Assembly (NCBI GenBank): GCA_012270795.1 | Contig: JAAXHO010000247.1 | Location: forward strand, 1-46,966 | Length of the DNA: 46,966 nucleotides | Source of the DNA: Candidatus Poribacteria bacterium | Lineage (GTDB): Bacteria; Poribacteria; WGA-4E; WGA-3G | Reading direction: 5' to 3' | Shown here: one piece after another, positions 26,927 through 37,314 of the stretch | Numbering within the stretch: position 1 is the first letter of the stretch | Layout of the letters: each line of letters begins with the position of its first letter | The notes under the pieces: model-generated | What the model was told of the DNA's origin: nothing | What the model saw: the letters and a program-made list of their open reading frames with translations, nothing else | Database searches by the model: none | Position numbers and translations under genes: made by a program

Positions 26927-29900
26927 TTAACTTGACGGTTCATCTACTTCACCAACTGGTTCAGGTAGTTCCTCTGGTTCAGGATTAACGATTGCACTGC
27001 TTGTAACTTCTTCATCGGTTGGTTCAGGTAGTTCCTCTGGTTCAGGATTAACGATTGCACTGCTTGTAACTTCTTCATCGGTTGGTTCAGGTAGTTCCTC
27101 TGGTTCAGGATGAGCGATTGTGCTGCTTTTAACCTCAAGTTCCTTCCATTGAGAGAAACCAGTTCCAGCAGGGATAAGTCGTCCAAGTATAACATTTTCC
27201 TTCAAACCGGTGAGTAGGTCTGTCTGTCCTTCTACGGCTGCATCAGAAAGTACTTTACGAGTTTCTTGGAAGCTGGCTGCTGATATGAAACTTTCTGTGC
27301 TGAGTGATGCTTTGCTAATGCTCTGTAAAACGGGTTTTCCAGTTGCAGGTACACCTCCATCCTGTTCAACGCGTCTATTCTCTGCGTGGAATCTGTGTCG
27401 TGGTACTTCATCATTAGCGAAGAATTCGGTATCACCTACGGATAGTATTTTTATCTTTTGTAGCATTTGCCTAACAATAACTTCAACGTGTTTATCATTG
27501 ATAGTATTGTTTCCGGGATATACTGCTTGTACTTCATCAACGAGGTAAGCCCAGACTGCTTCTTCACCTTCTATCGAATGTCCGTTGATAGTTGTTCTAC
27601 CGATTTCAAGGATATCGTGCGGATTCAGGAATCCGTCCGTGAGGGGTTGTCCGGCTTCAATCCAGTCACCATCATCAACCCGTCGTTTTTCATCAGTGAT
27701 AGAATAGAGTCTACTTTGTATTTTACCATCAACTATTCTGTATTGTGGTACACCTGCCTTCTGTCCTGTAAGTTGGACATATCCATCAATCTCTGCGATT
27801 TCTGCAGCGTCTTGCCGTTTTGGTGGTCGGGCTTCAAAGAGTCCGGTTACTCGTGGGATACCCGCCACGATGTCAAGGTTAGTCGTTTTTTCGTGTAACT
27901 CTGCTAAAGCCTGCTGTGACTTTACCTTTTCACCTTCCTTGAGTGAACCGGAATACCCGTTGGGAATTAAGTGAGATACTCTTGCACCGTTTGTGGTTAC
28001 TATATCAATACGGAACCTTTCTTTGAGGTCATCCACTTCAACTCCTGGATACTGTTCATAAGCTGTGGTGTATTCCCAATCCTTCAGTGTTTGTCCAACA
28101 GTCAGTGTGCAGTTAGGGTGAATGATGTTTGTAACTTCATAAGTATTTTTTGAAGTGGCTGCAGTTACATCCTTATAGTCTGCTTCACTTAGGATTTCGC
28201 CGACGGTGAGTTCGATTTCAGCGTCATTGACCTTTGTCACCTTGAAAACGCGTTCAGTATCAAATCCTTTGTAAAGTCTCAATGCGCGTTTATACTCGGT
28301 TTCGTTTATACGTTCACCAACAGTAAGTTGACATTCGCTATGATGTACTGCCAGAATGTGGTAATAAAGTTTGTATTCTGGGGGGGATGTGTCAGTCTCA
28401 CGATGTTTTTTGACCAATGCTTTATAATTCGATTCCATTAGAACTTCTTCAGAATCACTTTCCTCATTTGCAGGTATATAGAGTTTTTCAAAGTCAAAAC
28501 CTCTATAGCTTCTTCGGAATTTGTTGGATTCAGATTGTGTGATTCGTTCATCAATCTCGACAGGAAAATCTGGATGGTGTATTGCCACGACTTTATACAA
28601 TCTTTCAACTTCAAACGCTTCGTCGTTTTTTGCGACATTGACATCAAAACCTGGGTATTGCTTCATTAAAGCTTTTTTCTCACTATCGGTAAGGAGGGTT
28701 CCAGGTTCTAACTTGCAATCTGAATGATGTATAGCGGTGATTCTATGTTTGAGGGGATCTACCGTAACACCACTAAATTTCTCAAGTAAAGAAGCTAAGT
28801 TTGCACTTTCAATGAGTTCCCCCGGTTTCAGAGGACATTCAGGATGCGTAACTTGCGTGACGCGATACTGAGGTGTTGATAATTTCTGGACATCAAAAGC
28901 CTTGTTTTCTTCTTGCTTACGGCGGAATTCAGCTGCAGTCAGTTTTTGCCCTACTTCAATATCAATTCCATCACTCACTTCTTTTACAGTATAAATGGGT
29001 TCATCAAATTCAATATGGTATTGACTTTCTTCTTCAGGTGAGAGCAAATCTCCTACTTTATGTGGGAATTTGGGATCCGTAACCGATTCAATTTTATACT
29101 TCATTTCTGCGGTTACACTGTCCTTCTTCTGCAAGTATTCGCTTTCAGAAAGAATATCACCTTTAGCAGTTTGATATACCCATTCACCGTCAAAGGGACG
29201 GATTTTTGCTCTCCATTCTTCTGCTTTGCTTTCTGTCAAGAGTCTTCCGGGTTTTAACGAAGTCTTTGGCTTTGATACACTGATGACAGGAAACTGTGCT
29301 TCGTTGCAACGGAATAGAGAATATTTATGAGAATAGACATGGTATTCTTGTTCAGTAAGGTACTGCCCTACTGTCAATGGTTCATCCTTATCAGAAGCAG
29401 CTTCAATAACATCTGGGCGGTTAATTTGTCTGACTTCGTAATAGATAGTTTCTACTTCAAAACCGGGAAACCTTTCATTGTTTTCCTGCTTCTGTTTTTC
29501 TGTGAGTAGTTCTTCCGGTTGTAGTTTACATTCAGGGTGTTGTACTGATCTGACCTTATATTTCGGTTGGTCGGGGTGTTCAGCGACCTGTTGTGCGATC
29601 CACAGACCACTTTCTTCTCGAACGGTGCGGCCGGGTATATAATCGCGGAATCGTACTGTTCCTGTAGCTTTTGCTAGGATTTTCCGAGCAAGACGTTCAC
29701 TCATATCTTCAACAACGCCCCCAGTGTGGAAAGTACGCATAGTCAGCTGCGTTCCAGGTTCACCGATTGATTGTGCTGCGATGATTCCTATTGCTTCACC
29801 GACATTTACAAATTGACCTGAAGTTAAATCTGCACCGTAGCAGGTGGCACAAGCACCTTTTTCTGCTTCACAAGTGAGGATAGATTTTACTCGCACACTG

Positions 29901-32662
29901 GGGACTTCTATATCCTCAATGTGTTGTGCCATCTGTGGTGTGATGATCGTATCAGTTTCTACCAATACTTCCTCTGTTTCGGGATGAATCACTGGTTCAA
30001 CGGCAACTCTGCCACTAATTTTATGGCTAATAGTTCCTGAGTCTGTAGTGAACTTGAGAATGCCGTGTGTGGTACCGCAGTCTTCTTCAGTGATCATTAC
30101 ATCTTGTGCTACGTCTACGAGTTTACGTGTTAAGTAACCAGAAGCAGCGGTTTTCATAGCGGTATCCACCAATCCCTTCCGCGACCCATAAGTGGATGTG
30201 AAGTAGTCAAGAACATCTAAACCTTCACGATAGGAGGATTGAATCGGTGTAGAAAGGATTTCACCACTCTGTTTGGATTTCAAACCAACGATAGCACTGA
30301 TTTGATTGAATGGGTTCTTACGTGCGCGTGCCCCACTATCTGCCATAAGGTGAACAGGGCTGAATCCTTTTACATCTTTTCCTTGTTCAACCAGATGCGT
30401 TCCTGTTTCAGGTAGCGTTTCAAACAAAGAATCTTGAATATCAGAAACAGCATCATACCAGATCCGTATTTTTTCGTTCTCTAATTCTTCGAGCTCAAGA
30501 TTTTCCTCTGTAGACAGTCGTTGAATTTCAGCACTTGCTTTATTTAGGATTTCCATTTTATTTTCAGGTATCAGGTAATCCCTGATACCGGGAGAAATCC
30601 CACTACGTGTTGCATATTCAAAACTCAGTGTTTGTAGACGGTCTAATAGCGAAACAGTTTCTGCAGTTCCGAGTTCGTTAAAACACCTTTTTACGAGTTC
30701 TGATAAGCGTCTGCTGCGTGCTTCCTCGTTGAAGAATGGTATTTCAAGTCCTGTTGTTTCATCTTTCCAAGTAAGGGATGCGGTTCCGTTGGTATGTGGG
30801 AGAACTTCATTAAAGATGACACGTCCAACAGTTGTCAAGATCGGTTCTCGATGTCCTTTGAAGAAGAGTATAACCGAATCGTGTAGTTTGAGAGTTCCGC
30901 ATCCGTGTGCGTGTGTAATCTCATCTACTGTTGCGTATCGACGTTTCGCCCATTCTTCTTTTTCTAAAGATGAAAAGTCACCGTTAGATTTGGATTTATC
31001 TGAGTTTTCCGTATATGCAGCATGAAGTTGTTCAGCGCGTTGTGTATGTTCCGGCAATGTTTTTGTTAAAAAACTTGCCCCCAAAATCATATCCAATTCT
31101 GGTACAGTAATAGGTTCGCCGTGCGATGGTTTGAGGATATTTCCACTACTTAGCAGTAACATTTTTGCTTCAGTGCGTGCCTCAATAGAGAGTGGGACGT
31201 GCACAGCCATCTGGTCACCGTCAAAATCTGCATTGAATGCTTTACAAACAAGTGGTGGAATACGAATAGATTTACCTTCAACAAGTACAGGCATAAATGC
31301 TTGGATTCCGAGTCTATGGAGCGTTGGTGGCCGATTGAGCAGTACCGGATGGTCAGCGATGACCTCTTCCAATGCCTCCCAGATCGGTGAATCGGATGTG
31401 ACGTGTTCGGTCATGTATTTTCCGCGTTTGATGGTCTGGACTTCACCTGAGGCTAATAGTTTTTCAATAATGAATGGTTTGAAGAGTTCAACCGCCATCA
31501 ATTTTGGGATACCACATTGATGTAATTCAAGCTCAGGTCCTACGACGATAACGCTTCTTCCGGAATAATCAACGCGTTTTCCAAGGAGATTCTGACGGAA
31601 TCGACCGACTTTACCTCTTAGTATGTCGGATAATGATTTTAGGGCGCGTTTGCCCGGACCAGTAACTTGTCGTCCATGTCGTCCGTTATCCAAAAATGCG
31701 TCAACTGATTCCTGAAGCATCCGTTTTTCATTTCGGAGGATGACTTCTGGTGAGCGTAAGTCGATGAGTTTTTGCAGTCGATTGTTTCGGTTTATAACGC
31801 GTCGGTATAGATCGTTTAGGTCGCTTGTCGCAAATCTTCCACCTTCTAAGGAGACTAAGGGACGGAGATCGGGGCTGATGACGGGTAGGACATCCAATAT
31901 CATCCAATCTGGTTGCATCTGTGTTTTATTGAAACCTGCAACCATTCTCAATTTCTTAGAGAGTTTCATTTTTTTCTGCCGGCTGGAGGTTGCTTCCAGT
32001 TCTTCAGTGAGTTTTTCAACATCGTCAGATAGAGTGGTTTTTTGGAGGAGTTCCTTGATTGCTTCAGCCCCAGTTCCTGCTTGGAAGGAATCGGGATATT
32101 CTCGTAACTTTTCCTCCATTTCAGATTCCTTCAGAATATCTTTTTCAACCAATCCACACTCCTCATCAATTACTTCAATAACGGTGAATGCTTCAAAATA
32201 GAGTATGCGTTCTACGGTCCGTGATGCGAGTTCAAGGAGTGTTCCTATCCGTGAAGGGATGCCTTTAAAGAACCAAATATGAGAGACAGGTGTTGCGAGT
32301 TTAATATATCCAAGTCGTTCACGCCGGACCTGTGATTTTGTAACCTCAACACCGCACTGGTCACAGATTAGTCCTTTGTGTTTAATTCGCTTGTATTTGC
32401 CACAACTACATTCAAAATTCTTTTGCGGTCCGAAAGTTGCTTCACAGAATAGACCTTGATGTTCAGGTCGAAAACTTCTGTAGTTAATGGTTTCAGCTTT
32501 CTTGATTTCACCACAGTCGCAAGTGCCTTTTTCTGGGCATGACCATGTGTCATTAGTTGGGTTCCTCCGTTTGCAAGAGGTGCGTTTTGCCCAATCTCTT
32601 ATCTGTTCAGGAGATGCAATGCTGATAGAGATACGATTAAATTGATTTTCTTTGTCTGTCAT
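26927..32662 (-). CDS. rpoC: RNA polymerase beta' subunit with large repeat-rich trigger-loop insertion
   Basis: The 1911 residues exceed typical RpoC (about 1200-1400). Core features are present: zinc cysteines C85, C87, C100, C103, the catalytic NADFDGDQM (477-485), second zinc site C862, C931, C938, C941, and the trigger-loop start GEPGTQLTMRTFH with GG at 981-982. The loop resumes at DIVAGIPRVTGLFEARPPK (1597 on), so about 610 residues lie between. Most, about 1035-1549, are some eleven degenerate repeats of 35-50 residues (Y.V..I.HP.C.L..GE.L.E). An extra cysteine cluster, C30, C42, C48, C50, precedes the zinc ribbon. The tail has a 21-residue repeat (63 bp) of Glu-Pro-rich sequence. Confidence 0.97.
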   Translation of the reverse strand: MTDKENQFNRISISIASPEQIRDWAKRTSCKRRNPTNDTWSCPEKGTCDCGEIKKAETINYRSFRPEHQGLFCEATFGPQKNFECSCGKYKRIKHKGLICDQCGVEVTKSQVRRERLGYIKLATPVSHIWFFKGIPSRIGTLLELASRTVERILYFEAFTVIEVIDEECGLVEKDILKESEMEEKLREYPDSFQAGTGAEAIKELLQKTTLSDDVEKLTEELEATSSRQKKMKLSKKLRMVAGFNKTQMQPDWMILDVLPVISPDLRPLVSLEGGRFATSDLNDLYRRVINRNNRLQKLIDLRSPEVILRNEKRMLQESVDAFLDNGRHGRQVTGPGKRALKSLSDILRGKVGRFRQNLLGKRVDYSGRSVIVVGPELELHQCGIPKLMAVELFKPFIIEKLLASGEVQTIKRGKYMTEHVTSDSPIWEALEEVIADHPVLLNRPPTLHRLGIQAFMPVLVEGKSIRIPPLVCKAFNADFDGDQMAVHVPLSIEARTEAKMLLLSSGNILKPSHGEPITVPELDMILGASFLTKTLPEHTQRAEQLHAAYTENSDKSKSNGDFSSLEKEEWAKRRYATVDEITHAHGCGTLKLHDSVILFFKGHREPILTTVGRVIFNEVLPHTNGTASLTWKDETTGLEIPFFNEEARSRRLSELVKRCFNELGTAETVSLLDRLQTLSFEYATRSGISPGIRDYLIPENKMEILNKASAEIQRLSTEENLELEELENEKIRIWYDAVSDIQDSLFETLPETGTHLVEQGKDVKGFSPVHLMADSGARARKNPFNQISAIVGLKSKQSGEILSTPIQSSYREGLDVLDYFTSTYGSRKGLVDTAMKTAASGYLTRKLVDVAQDVMITEEDCGTTHGILKFTTDSGTISHKISGRVAVEPVIHPETEEVLVETDTIITPQMAQHIEDIEVPSVRVKSILTCEAEKGACATCYGADLTSGQFVNVGEAIGIIAAQSIGEPGTQLTMRTFHTGGVVEDMSERLARKILAKATGTVRFRDYIPGRTVREESGLWIAQQVAEHPDQPKYKVRSVQHPECKLQPEELLTEKQKQENNERFPGFEVETIYYEVRQINRPDVIEAASDKDEPLTVGQYLTEQEYHVYSHKYSLFRCNEAQFPVISVSKPKTSLKPGRLLTESKAEEWRAKIRPFDGEWVYQTAKGDILSESEYLQKKDSVTAEMKYKIESVTDPKFPHKVGDLLSPEEESQYHIEFDEPIYTVKEVSDGIDIEVGQKLTAAEFRRKQEENKAFDVQKLSTPQYRVTQVTHPECPLKPGELIESANLASLLEKFSGVTVDPLKHRITAIHHSDCKLEPGTLLTDSEKKALMKQYPGFDVNVAKNDEAFEVERLYKVVAIHHPDFPVEIDERITQSESNKFRRSYRGFDFEKLYIPANEESDSEEVLMESNYKALVKKHRETDTSPPEYKLYYHILAVHHSECQLTVGERINETEYKRALRLYKGFDTERVFKVTKVNDAEIELTVGEILSEADYKDVTAATSKNTYEVTNIIHPNCTLTVGQTLKDWEYTTAYEQYPGVEVDDLKERFRIDIVTTNGARVSHLIPNGYSGSLKEGEKVKSQQALAELHEKTTNLDIVAGIPRVTGLFEARPPKRQDAAEIAEIDGYVQLTGQKAGVPQYRIVDGKIQSRLYSITDEKRRVDDGDWIEAGQPLTDGFLNPHDILEIGRTTINGHSIEGEEAVWAYLVDEVQAVYPGNNTINDKHVEVIVRQMLQKIKILSVGDTEFFANDEVPRHRFHAENRRVEQDGGVPATGKPVLQSISKASLSTESFISAASFQETRKVLSDAAVEGQTDLLTGLKENVILGRLIPAGTGFSQWKELEVKSSTIAHPEPEELPEPTDEEVTSSAIVNPEPEELPEPTDEEVTSSAIVNPEPEELPEPVGEVDEPSS
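26958..27110. repeat. 63-bp tandem repeat in the rpoC tail
   Basis: Near-identical 63-base units begin at 26958, 27021 and 27084 and encode a 21-residue repeat with PEPEELPEPTDEEV. The third unit is partial and diverges at its end. Confidence 0.9.
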
Positions 32663-32765: not shown

Positions 32766-35700
32766 CTATTCTGAGTCGTCGGTGTTCCACGACAATCTGA
32801 GCGGAGGTTCCTCTTCAATCGGTTCCAGTGTATCTATCGTATGTAAGAGTGGGAAGCCGGCATCGTGTAGAGCAGAATGTTCTGCATCGGCATCACCAGG
32901 ATCACCTTCTGAGAGTTCTACATTTAAACCGAGGCTCTGTAGTTCTCTTACTAAGACATTGAAAGATTCGGGTGTCCCTGGTTTTAAAGGACTTTGTCCT
33001 TTCACGATAGATTCATAGATTTTTGTTCTACCTTTCACGTCATCGGACTTTATTGTCAACATTTCCTGAAGTGTATGTGCTGCCCCGTATGCTTCCAGTG
33101 CCCATACCTCCATTTCACCGAGTCGTTGTCCGCCGTGCTGTGCTTTTCCACCGAGGGGTTGTTGCGTCACTAAGGAATAAGGACCGGTTGATCGTGCGTG
33201 CATCTTATCTGCTACAAGGTGATTCAACTTGAGGAAATACACGTGCCCGACAGTCACTTCCTGTCCGAACGGTTCACCAGTTCTACCATCAAAGAGGACG
33301 CTTTTACCGGTTTGTTTGACGTTATTGGGTAAATCGGTTTTTGCTAACATATCAAACACTTCTTCTTCTGTTGCACCGTCGAATACGGGAGATGACACAT
33401 ATAATCCGAGTTGCTGACATGCTAAACCCAAGTGTATCTCAAGGATTTGACCGACGTTCATCCGAGAAGGTACACCGAGGGGGTTTAAGACAATATCCAC
33501 GGGTGTACCGTCAGGTAGATAGGGCATGTCTTCTTCGGGTAGGATCTTTGCGACAACACCTTTGTTTCCATATCGTCCAGCCATTTTGTCCCCGATAGAT
33601 ATTGGACGACGACTTGCGACATAGACTTTAACAAGTTTTAGAACGCCAGGTTTTAATTCTTCACCTGCTTCTAGTTTCTCCAATGCATCTTCTTTTTCCG
33701 CTGTATATGCATTGATTCTACCAGTTGCAAGTTCATGAAGACTTTTGATATATGATGTTGCATCTGGATCAGTAATCTGCAATGTTTCAAGTTCGTTTTG
33801 TGAAAGCGTATCTAGATATTCACGCGTCAAGACATCACCTGCTTGCAGCTGCTTTGCTGATTCTGTGTTTTCTTCTGTGTCATCGCTATTATCAATGTCA
33901 AAAGTTGTTGGATATGCAAGTTCTTTGTTAGTTAAGGTTTCGCGTAGTTCTTCAAGCAAACGTTCTGTGACCTGATCGCGCTGTTCTTTCCAGGTTTGCT
34001 CAATTTGTTTGCGTAACGCTTCTTGCCGCCATGCGGTTTTCTCACTGTTCGGTGAAGTATGTCGTGAGAAGACTTTAACGTCAATGACAACGCCTTCTAC
34101 ACCAGGTCGGGTGTAAGCAGATGCATCTTTTACCTCTTTGACTTTTTCACCGAAGATTGCTCGTAGTAATTTCTCTTCTGGTCCATATTCACTTTCACCT
34201 TTAGGTGAGATTTTGCCAACGAGGATGCTCCCTGTGCCAACGACACTCCCAACACGGATGATTCCCTCATCATCAAGTTGTGCCAGACTGCGTGCGGACA
34301 TGTTCGGAATATCTCTCGTAATTTCCTCATCGCCCATCTTCGTTTGTCTGGCTGCAACTTCAAATTCTTCTATATGGATAGAGGTAAACGTATCATTTTT
34401 GATAAGCGATTCACTGATAAGGATTGAGTCCTCAAAGTTATGTCCACCCCACGGCATATATGCACAAAGGATATTTCTACCAAGTGCAAGTTCACCCCCT
34501 TCGGTAGCAGTACCATCCGCAATAACATCCCCAGCTTCTACTACGTCTCCGATATTTACACGGGGTCGCTGATGTATACATGTTCCGCTATTACTCCGTT
34601 TGAAGTTTTTAAGTTTATATACATCGTATCCCATTTCACTAAAGGTGTGTTCACCCTCTTCCAGATGCAGTGCTTGTCCAGTACGGATGAGTATCTCTTT
34701 TGCGTCAACACTGGAAACGACACCACCTCTTTGTGCAACCACCATTGCGTTAGCGTCTCGCGCAGCACGGTGTTCCATACCTGTGCCGACCCAAGGTGCT
34801 TCTGGACATATTAGTGGTACTGCTTGTCGTTGGTGGTTAGCCCCCATCAGTGCGCGGTTTGCATCTTCATGTTCTAAAAAAGGAACAAGTGCAGCAGAGA
34901 CACCGACAATCTGTTGTGGTGCAACCCCAATGTAGTCTATCTCATTGAGATCGCACTCTATGATCTCCTCACCTTTTCTGCTCCGAAGAGTAGCTAATTT
35001 ATTTCTGGGAGAGATAGAGTCAGCAGGAGCGATGTGATATCTATCCTCAGCATCCGCTGTTAGAAACTCAACATCTTTAGTGATTTTTCCTTTTCGTACT
35101 GCACGATATGGAGTTTCTAAAAAGCCGTACGGATTAACACGCGCAAAAGTCGCTAACGACACTATGAGACCAATAGAGGGGCCTTCAGGGGTTTCTAATG
35201 GACAGACACGTCCATAGTGTGTACGGTGCACATCACGGACCGCTGCTGTTGCTCTATCCCTGTGTAGACCTCCAGGTCCGATAGCTGAAATCCTACGTTT
35301 GTGCGTAAGTTCGTCTAACGGATTTATCTGCTGCATAAATTGGGAGAGTTGGTTGGAACCGAAAAACTCACGAAGTGACATCATCAAAGGTTTGGGATTC
35401 ACTAAGTTCTTTGGACTTTTCAGTTGTGCATCCGATGTTGAACTCAATTTTTCACGTGCTGCGCGACGTATCTGCAGTAGAGCGATTCTGAATTGATTCT
35501 CAAGAAGTTCCCCGATGACACGTACACGCCTGTTACCGAGATGGTCAAGATCATCTACTAATCTAAGACCATTTCGTATATCCATTAGGTGTTGTAAGGT
35601 AGCAGCAATATCTTCTGGGCGTAGCACACGAATGTCTTCTGATGGTAGTTCTCCAGATTCATCAAGGTATACGTTTGAATCAGCGAGTTGTGAGTTGAGT

Positions 35701-36791
35701 TTGTATCTACCGACGGTGCCTAAGTCGTAACGTGCTCCATCAAAAAAGAGGCGTTCTAAACAGGTTGCTGCTGCTTCGCGTGTCGGTGCATCACCTGGAC
35801 GAAGCGTTCGAAAAATCTCGAGCAGTGCACCTTCTTGTAATGTTCCACCTGCATAGGCTTTTACAGTGTCGCGTGAAAGTGTATTTCGTAGATATCTCAA
35901 TTCTTGTTCATCTGTCTCGACTAATACCTCAATCTCTTTCACTTTTGCTTCAGTCAGTCTGTCAAATTCTATTTCTGACAACTTCGTGTTTGATTCAAGG
36001 AGGACCTCACCCGTTTCTTTATCAATAAGAGGTTCGACGACGATGCGTCCTATTACATCCTGAGTCATTTTAACGTTTTCAGTATTGCTGAACAGTCGTA
36101 GTATATCTGCGTCAGTTTCCCAACCGAGGGCTCGTAAGAGCACTGTTGCCAATATTTTCTTTTTGCGATCCAATCGGACGTGAATACAGTCTTTTGAATC
36201 AAATTCGAACTCTATCCAGGCACCACGGTATGGGATAATTTGTCCTGTAGGTAGTTTCTGAATACTTGTTGCACTGGATTTATCAAGGAAAATGACACCG
36301 GGGGATCGTTGTAACTGATTAACAATGACACGTTCCGATCCGTTGATGATAAAAGTTCCATTTTCAGTCATCAGGGGTATATCTCCCAGATAGACATCGG
36401 ATTCGGTAATATCGAGCACCCGTGTTTGGCCTGTGTCTTCATCTTTCTCACGTTCAACACACATTAACCGTGCTTGTAACCTGACTTGATAATTCAAACC
36501 GCGTGCCTGACAATCCGTTAGGTCGTGTGTCGGTGGACTCAAAGTATAACTGACAAATTCAAGACTTGTTGTCTCTTTGAAATCATATATTGGAAAAACT
36601 TCTTTGAACAGTGCTTGTAGACCTACTGATTCGCGTTCGTTTTCTGCGACGTTGCGTTGCATAAATGCTGCATAAGAACGTTTTTGAGTCTCGATTAGAT
36701 TGGGCAGTTCAATGACCGAAGAGGTTTTTGAAAAGGAGGTGCGTTGTCGTAACGCAACCGGTCTTCCATTCGTATTTTTATTTTGGGGCAT
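32766..36791 (-). CDS. rpoB: RNA polymerase beta subunit
   Basis: Read from the ATG at 36791 (AAGG site 8 bases upstream) this is 1341 residues, near the E. coli size. It contains [13 protein letters not shown], the rifampicin-region [30 protein letters not shown] and the C-terminal [25 protein letters not shown]. An upstream GTG at 36800 is less likely. rpoC follows after 103 bases. The usual upstream rplJ-rplL genes are missing; instead there is a roughly 500-base leader and a small ORF. Confidence 0.97.
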   Translation of the reverse strand: [1341 protein letters not shown]

Positions 36792-37314
36792 AGTTTTCAC
36801 CTTGCTCGGTATGTTGGCGGTTTGAAGTTTCGTACGCTTGTACTTCTTTTATTGGACAAGTTGATGATTTTGTTTTAGGAAACAACTATGGTAAATCTGT
36901 TTGTAAAAGAATGCTTTTTTTATGAAAAAGGCCTCAATGCTATTTCAATCTGCTATTAAATTGACCAAACAGTTTTCTTGGCACAGGACGGTATTATGTT
37001 GGATTGTGAGTAGCAGATGATAGACTATTTCTCGCAACCAACAATTGTGGTTCATTTCACCTTGTCGTCACAAAAAGTATGAACTCGTTGAAGATTGAAT
37101 ATTACTAATTTAATTGCGGGGATTGTAAATTTAAGAGTTGACACAGACTAATTGGGTTTGTCTTTACAGATACCTAAATTGTCTAACCAACTGACAATTT
37201 GGTTTCTTATGGGTTGATTTATAGAAACTATTTTTGTGAATGTAAACTGACTGGGAGATGGGTTTGCAGCACAACAATGGTAATAGTTAGGTACATATAT
37301 TTCTACTAACTTTT
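36792..37314. other. Long leader region upstream of rpoB
   Basis: No gene of convincing quality lies here. It is AT-rich. I saw no clear terminator, ribosomal-protein-binding structure or rplL-like frame. A promoter further upstream at 37529-37558 reads through it toward rpoB. Confidence 0.4.

Follow-up and report, generated by a model that had tools for sequence, protein, structure and literature searches.

In each cellular RNA polymerase (RNAP), the trigger loop is the part that moves, and SI3 is the classical lineage-specific graft on it. In the DNA analyzed here, a stretch of 46,966 nt (the window; contig C238 of a 5.18-Mb Poribacteria genome), gene rpoC codes for a beta' subunit whose trigger loop is parted by 614 residues. 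The locus raises the question of what this insert is made of, where it came from and what it could do at the moving part of the enzyme.

The trigger-loop insert and its distribution

Gene rpoC (26927–32662; all features described for the window are on the minus strand) is a single open frame for an unsplit beta' of 1,911 aa, in which Pfam identifies five domains of RNAP beta', and is accompanied by rpoB (32766–36800; 1,344 aa). The C-terminus of RpoC (26930–27130) is an acidic tail with a tandem EEVTSSAIVNPEPEELPEPTD-like repeat, and the matches of relatives mostly stop short of it. The surroundings of rpoBC, scanned from 20040 to 43413, showed no ribosomal-protein gene among the neighbors; nearby genes match the fumarase, CoA-ligase, PGK, prolyl-tRNA synthetase, DUF4416 and peptidase S58 families.

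The first half of the trigger loop ends at LTMRTFHTGG (residues 973–982; 29717–29746) and the loop resumes with DIVAGIPRVTGLFEARPPK (residues 1597–1615; 27818–27874), the motif DIVAGIPRVTG starting at residue 1597. The insert (residues 983–1596; 27875–29716) occupies the place between these two conserved halves, as SI3-type insertions do. An earlier note made from this DNA had claimed an insertion of about 610 residues, among the largest of its kind; the insertion is real and the limits given for it were exact. As to its size, the available part of PMC10802570 names the cyanobacterial Si3, with 645 aa, as the largest known, while the inserts of the family to which the window belongs span 614–923 aa.

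Relatives were sampled by a protein search over 59 genomes and then by their rpoBC regions. In the family of the window, 55 genomes have an rpoC frame; the insert is complete in 52 of them and the frame is cut in the other three. The complete inserts are of 614–616 aa in the genus of the window (g1; n = 15), of 618–923 aa in a second genus (g2; n = 35), and of 842 and 845 aa in a third (g3). Within the same order, families f2 and f4 carry an ordinary SI3 of 193–212 aa at the same place (11 genomes), and the trigger-loop inserts of family f3 are of 214, 369, and 388 aa (three genomes); class-level relatives have 178–237 aa at this site (six genomes). The earlier note had proposed to look for the insertion in relatives, and to doubt it if they lacked any; in the other families the array that fills the insert (see below) is indeed missing, but an ordinary SI3 is still there, and the array is therefore a trait of the family rather than an error. 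A contig scan with two peptide patterns derived from an alignment of the inserts retrieved 44 loci, every one of them from Poribacteria and several of them on single-contig chromosomes of at least 5 Mb (e.g., OY282386, OX638316, OX638352, and OX639992); judged from these sequences, and at the sensitivity of the two-pattern scan, the array is confined to this group. Alignment sets A3 and A5 contain 42 and 43 rows, respectively, both without L116 (which has an N gap) and the cut L076, and A3 also without L073. Extra RpoC-like frames, either paralogs or contamination, stand beside the main one in G030:C127, G048:C155, and G051:C244.

The SI3 barrel and the tandem array

From our reading of the sequences, the short SI3 of relatives consists of two HABAS/SBHM barrels. 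The first 53 residues of the insert matched the second of these barrels in six out of seven relatives (z 4.1–12.0), versus z ≤1.2 for the first barrel, and the last 53 residues matched the end of the second barrel in the same six (z 2.7–10.8); with L069, from family f3, the test failed for both ends. In an AlphaFold model of residues 873–1860 (mean pLDDT 69.5, pTM 0.35, with a poor C-terminus and a trigger loop below pLDDT 50), both flanks join into one barrel, whose halves are residues 983–1034 (29561–29716) and 1543–1596 (27875–28036). This barrel aligned with the crystal structure of E. coli SI3 (4iqz_D) with Z 10.7 over 80 residues at 2.3 A (VIA-align), as fits the claim of the earlier note that the ends of the insert resemble the SI3 beta-barrel. 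In the VIA-align rows for the whole enzyme, it fell on residues 1021–1126 of E. coli beta', which we take to be the second SBHM of SI3. Of the two SBHMs that characterize the E. coli form, a counterpart was found for the second only; both the sequence matches and the model indicate that a single SI3 barrel is left, similar to that second SBHM, and that the first is without a counterpart.

Between the two barrel halves lies an array of approximately 508 aa (residues 1035–1542; 28037–29560), in which an iterated profile recognized 11 diverged units of around 35 aa with consensus YRVTAVHHPDCPLKVGELLTEAEYKAAREKYKGFD. Units 1–4 are at 29456–29560, 29312–29440, 29189–29293, and 29003–29098, unit 5 is at 28892–28993, and units 6–11 are at 28763–28867, 28643–28747, 28493–28597, 28259–28363, 28160–28246, and 28037–28141; all of them were found in both profile searches, except for unit 5, which was found with the iterated profile and was absent at E ≤0.1 from the genome search with the 89-unit profile (see below). 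The best ungapped 35-aa self-match of the insert scored 89, versus 55 at most among 300 shuffles, and the mean of its 20 best diagonals was 61.7 versus a shuffle maximum of 24.1; the corresponding values for a comparison stretch, residues 1–614 of RpoC, were 26 and 14.8. The mean identity between units is 0.28 (0.17 when shuffled). Modeled alone, the array was locally confident (AlphaFold, pLDDT 89.1, pTM 0.51) and is predicted to fold as a series of short beta-beta-alpha units, with 14 helices in the model; no Pfam family matched it. Our guess from the model is that the array could form two closed half-rings (ranges 2–274 and 275–520 of the VIA model).

The best match of each unit was its positional counterpart for 11 of 11 units in the tested pairs from g1 and from g3, for 10 of 11 in a g2 pair, and for eight of 11 between g2 and g3; comparing the window with g2 and g3 gave five and two of 11, respectively. 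Units match their counterparts well within genera and poorly from the window to g2 and g3; the expansion is therefore old, and it is likely from these comparisons that g1, g2, and g3 share one ancestral array. Against the closest relative, dN/dS was 0.10 for the array (388 codons covered) and 0.055 for the core (residues 1–982), with two other pairs tested being near saturation. The array is under purifying selection and, therefore, a maintained protein. The longest insert (L110, 923 aa) contains, by eye, an apparent second copy of several units.

The units resemble a domain of beta' itself, the small left claw (sLC), whose name and two places in beta' (bD2 and bD7) are from the available part of PMC11515920. 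The profile used here was built from 89 units of 12 loci; set A4 holds units with at least 28 bits over at least 27 profile positions, from 12 loci and with seven units from the window. Searching the whole genome of the window (5.2 Mb) at E ≤0.1, the 89-unit profile had 11 matches, ten in the insert and only one outside the array, at the canonical sLC (32093–32185; bD2 in the naming used in the accessible text of PMC11515920). Over 84 Poribacteria genomes, it had 8–20 matches in 55 of the 58 family members and exactly one in each of the 11 f2 and f4 genomes, a single match that an earlier unit profile had placed at beta' residues 167–223. There was no match in the three f3 genomes, in the 12 more distant Poribacteria genomes or in the family genomes G004, G007, and G068, the RpoC of G004 and G007 being likewise without a match in the protein search. 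The two longest f3 inserts (L069, 388 aa; L070, 369 aa) show no sLC matches and contain, by eye, other, helical-looking repeats; perhaps their SI3 grew independently.

Profile–profile comparison with hhalign matched the units to the canonical sLCs of 17 insert-less relatives with a probability of 98.6 (E 1.4e-15); these 17 were used out of 20 in set A6, leaving out L060, L069, and L070, which have long internal extensions. In a sliding control with 155 RpoC and 141 RpoB segments, and considering the best nine of each protein, the five segments over the sLC scored 91.7–97.8, and those elsewhere 43.3 at most. The latter value was that of the best RpoB segment, which covers the BEAN region, and we accordingly rejected half-BEAN (BBM2) repeats as the identity of the units. 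Structural comparisons were compatible with the same domain. With the model of the array alone, each of the 50 best VIA-align rows was an RNAP chain, 48 near the C-terminal sLC (bD7, an assignment that we inferred for species not tabulated) and two at the N-terminal sLC (bD2), with Z values of 4.0–5.9 that the tool calls middling, warning that Z below 8 may reflect a common arrangement. Against PDB sequences, the unit profile matched beta' of several bacteria at residues 141–173 in five of the nine sequences listed, weakly (best E 0.11), and with the units of the window only the best beta' match had E 1.2; Foldseek with the array alone returned nothing at E ≤0.001 in PDB or BFVD. Taken together, we consider it nearly certain that the insert is built of one barrel plus an array and that the units of the latter are sLC copies. 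The earlier note was right that the middle is unlike a standard SI3, although it missed both the tandem sLC copies and the fact that a single barrel remains.

Among relatives, the similarity is greatest with the sLCs of families f2 and f4. Units and f2/f4 sLCs share a PxC stretch, where the class-level relatives of set A6 have a two-residue gap, and the earlier unit profile scored 22–42 bits on all 11 f2/f4 sLCs, 7–16 bits on five of the nine from f3 and class relatives (no score in the other four) and 15.5 bits on the sLC of the window. The common PxC stretch and the higher f2/f4 scores make duplication of the lineage's own sLC the simplest history, and we consider this origin quite probable from the sequences.

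sLC units elsewhere in the polymerase genes

Inserts with sLC units are not limited to the trigger loop. The rpoB gene of the window was searched for them and none was found. Comparison of 51 RpoB frames of the family (g2 and g3 loci L038–L052 and L132–L153) revealed an sLC-containing insert around position 260 in 32 of 33 g2 frames (the remaining frame being short, 1,305 aa) and in both g3 frames, as well as a second one near 978–1026 in all 33 g2 frames and only in g2; both sites are devoid of sLC inserts in the 16 frames from the genus of the window. Other inserts with or within sLC units are sporadic, occurring in RpoC of G008, G033, G063, and G066 and in RpoB of G014, G073, and G075. Inside RpoC, MTES_1575 nuclease domains with adjoining sLC units were found in three of 57 family genomes and at three different sites: around residues 880–1310 in G008 (L037), within the trigger-loop insert in G033 (L046), and in the C-terminal sLC region in G063 (L102/L135). 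The RpoB of G014 (L075/L129) contains, after GFLETPYR, an HNH-like stretch and sLC units, the HNH label being that of a Pfam match below the cut-off (E 0.056), obtained with just a 73-aa piece. G073 (L144) has sLC units without a nuclease at almost the same position. RpoB from G075 (L122) is of 2,269 aa and shows, at residues ~500–1040, an HSDR_N-like stretch (E 0.008, below the Pfam cut-off) with sLC units, and an apparent degenerate second copy. The g2 RpoB insert near 980–1026 did not match any Pfam family and looks nuclease-like from its similarity to the G075 insert (39% over 214 aa). In G066 (L138), the sLC-unit insert is at RpoC position 168 of the window, inside the canonical sLC itself.

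Two of the RpoC insertions were considered as inteins and rejected. In G008, the extra ~420 aa are instead the nuclease and sLC cassette; in G002 (L036), an insertion of ~418 aa at positions 705–728 of the RpoC of the window is coiled-coil-like by eye, with no sLC units and no convincing Pfam family. The RNAP-gene inteins described in the accessible part of PMC1635734 are similar in being in-frame, nuclease-bearing inserts, which in our case occur in relatives only; unlike them, the Poribacteria inserts lack a Hint or intein match and look like permanent folded domains.

That sLC units are found in RpoB as well, and at additional sites of RpoC, in some cases next to nucleases, suggests that in these relatives they may be movable cassettes, and raises the question of whether an essential enzyme has been colonized by movable in-frame elements. 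All the arrays, including that of the window, could then be relics of cassettes composed of linker, nuclease, and sLC units, which entered rpoB and rpoC in frame and, as sLC units of host origin fold well, were tolerated; the array of the window would be an old, nuclease-free, fixed copy, perhaps without regulatory gain. This agrees with the three different RpoC sites of MTES_1575 and with the HNH-like and HSDR_N-like stretches in RpoB, both below Pfam cut-offs, and also with the resemblance of cassettes across sites and genes, of 36% over 399 aa between G008 and G063 RpoC, of 47% over 157 aa between G014 RpoB and G008 RpoC and of 39% over 214 aa between the G075 and g2 RpoB inserts, versus 24% over 244 aa between the G008 cassette and the array of the window. 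However, no nuclease domain is among the Pfam matches of the latter, which is kept throughout the family under purifying selection; moreover, the G073 RpoB insert is closer to it (E 5e-16) than to the G063 cassette (E 9e-8), and the G008 insert replaces part of the host sequence, with no clean empty site. We consider this relic origin unlikely. A bolder version, which we find slightly more doubtful still, is that sLC units from beta' itself are the scaffold of undescribed, in-frame and non-splicing mobile nuclease cassettes (MTES_1575, HNH-like, and HSDR_N-like) invading the RNAP genes of Poribacteria at many sites, the array of the window being one that became fixed and selected; if so, an element that began as selfish would have become a regulator of transcription.

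It is very improbable that the insert is a cyanobacteria-like SI3 enlarged by extra SBHM/HABAS barrels. The place is the same, the size is similar and one barrel is present, but the middle matches the sLC profile rather than a barrel and is predicted to fold as short beta-beta-alpha units; barrel repeats of the cyanobacterial type were disfavored by the profile matches, the hhalign control, and the predicted fold. A misassembly, a frame error or a spliced-out intein can practically be dismissed since, although inteins also look like large in-frame inserts in conserved active-site segments, the insert is complete in nearly all family genomes and occurs on single-contig chromosomes, the RpoC Pfam matches (E ≤0.01) include no intein or Hint family, the barrel halves stand at both insert ends, and the array is under purifying selection.

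A putative arm on the trigger loop

Our preferred reading is that of a rebuilt SI3, with its second barrel retained and one of the loops of this barrel opened by the ~508-residue array. The sLC of beta' would have multiplied within the gene in the ancestry of the family and then diverged under purifying selection, and the array would now be a large arm that the barrel attaches to the moving trigger loop. This arm would most likely run along the rim of the secondary channel, the jaw, and the beta lobe, and could bias the folding of the trigger loop, hence pausing and transcript cleavage, as cyanobacterial SI3 does; it may also affect the stability of the open complex. Taken as a whole, the combination of a rebuilt SI3, an array from the own sLC and an arm on the trigger loop is in our opinion the probable explanation; that the array works as an SI3-like regulatory arm acting on trigger-loop folding is, by itself, a tentative proposal, made by analogy with the large SI3 of cyanobacteria, which also lack Gre.

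The proposal is set against the complement of factors that use the secondary channel. GreA_GreB_N was found in none of the 84 Poribacteria genomes (9 of 14 in the control), and GreA_GreB had no match over the cut-off in the same genomes and one below it. The DksA finger was detected in one of 58 family members (G067, 81% complete and with 6% contamination), in none of 14 order relatives and in five of 12 other Poribacteria. Since the phylum lacks a detected Gre and the family almost lacks DksA, an arm at the channel entrance would displace nothing that needs it. Loss of Gre was rejected as the cause of the array because Gre is also missing in relatives with an ordinary SI3, although it may have permitted it. 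For cyanobacteria, also without Gre, the part of PMC7026648 available suggests that access to the Gre site could have been blocked by their large SI3; cyanobacterial SI3 also covers the Gre/DksA site (PMC10802570, in the part available) and forms an arch with sigma (PMC10120043, likewise in part).

The closest known analog is the Si3 of cyanobacteria and chloroplasts (type 3 beta'), which is also a giant trigger-loop insert on an SBHM base, in a lineage without Gre (from the available text of PMC7026648, and here from the Pfam searches of 84 genomes). Nevertheless, it has eight interleaved SBHMs and a split beta', whereas in Poribacteria there is one SBHM with an sLC array in an unsplit subunit. 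The SI3 found in type 4 beta' (E. coli and further Gram-negatives) shares with the Poribacteria insert the position and the second SBHM, but comprises two SBHMs in about 190 residues, while here the first SBHM is missing and a 508-aa array was added. The units share the sequence profile, and in the models may share the short beta-beta-alpha fold, with bD2 and bD7, the sLC domains of bacterial beta' (CATH 3.30.60.280), although these occur once each, in the clamp and in the C-terminal part, and here at least 11 tandem copies are in the trigger loop; in the accessible part of PMC11515920, which describes these domains, the only sLC insertions mentioned are those of rare variants, within bD2, bD4, bD5, and bD7.

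Besides cyanobacteria, another lineage has a trigger-loop insertion that equals in size, and in relatives exceeds, the one described as the largest, and this giant insertion was probably made from copies of a different part of the subunit itself. It could serve as a second natural experiment, beside cyanobacteria, with a giant trigger-loop arm in an enzyme without Gre factors. Insertions in RNAP were reportedly surveyed before by Lane and Darst, in 2010. Our literature search on Poribacteria RNAP, SI3, and RNAP insertions, which had most subscription journals outside its reach, found no description of the array; it retrieved "small left claw" only from PMC11515920 and, judging by titles and the beginning of abstracts, nothing related for MTES_1575 with RNA polymerase.

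The residue directly after FHTGG varies among the polymerases compared. It is V in the window (residue 983; 29714–29716), M in five other aligned members of its genus, and A in the g2 and g3 rows. This position is presumably equivalent to A940 of E. coli. In E. coli RNAP, the change A940V leads to more transcript hydrolysis, according to the available part of PMC7026648.
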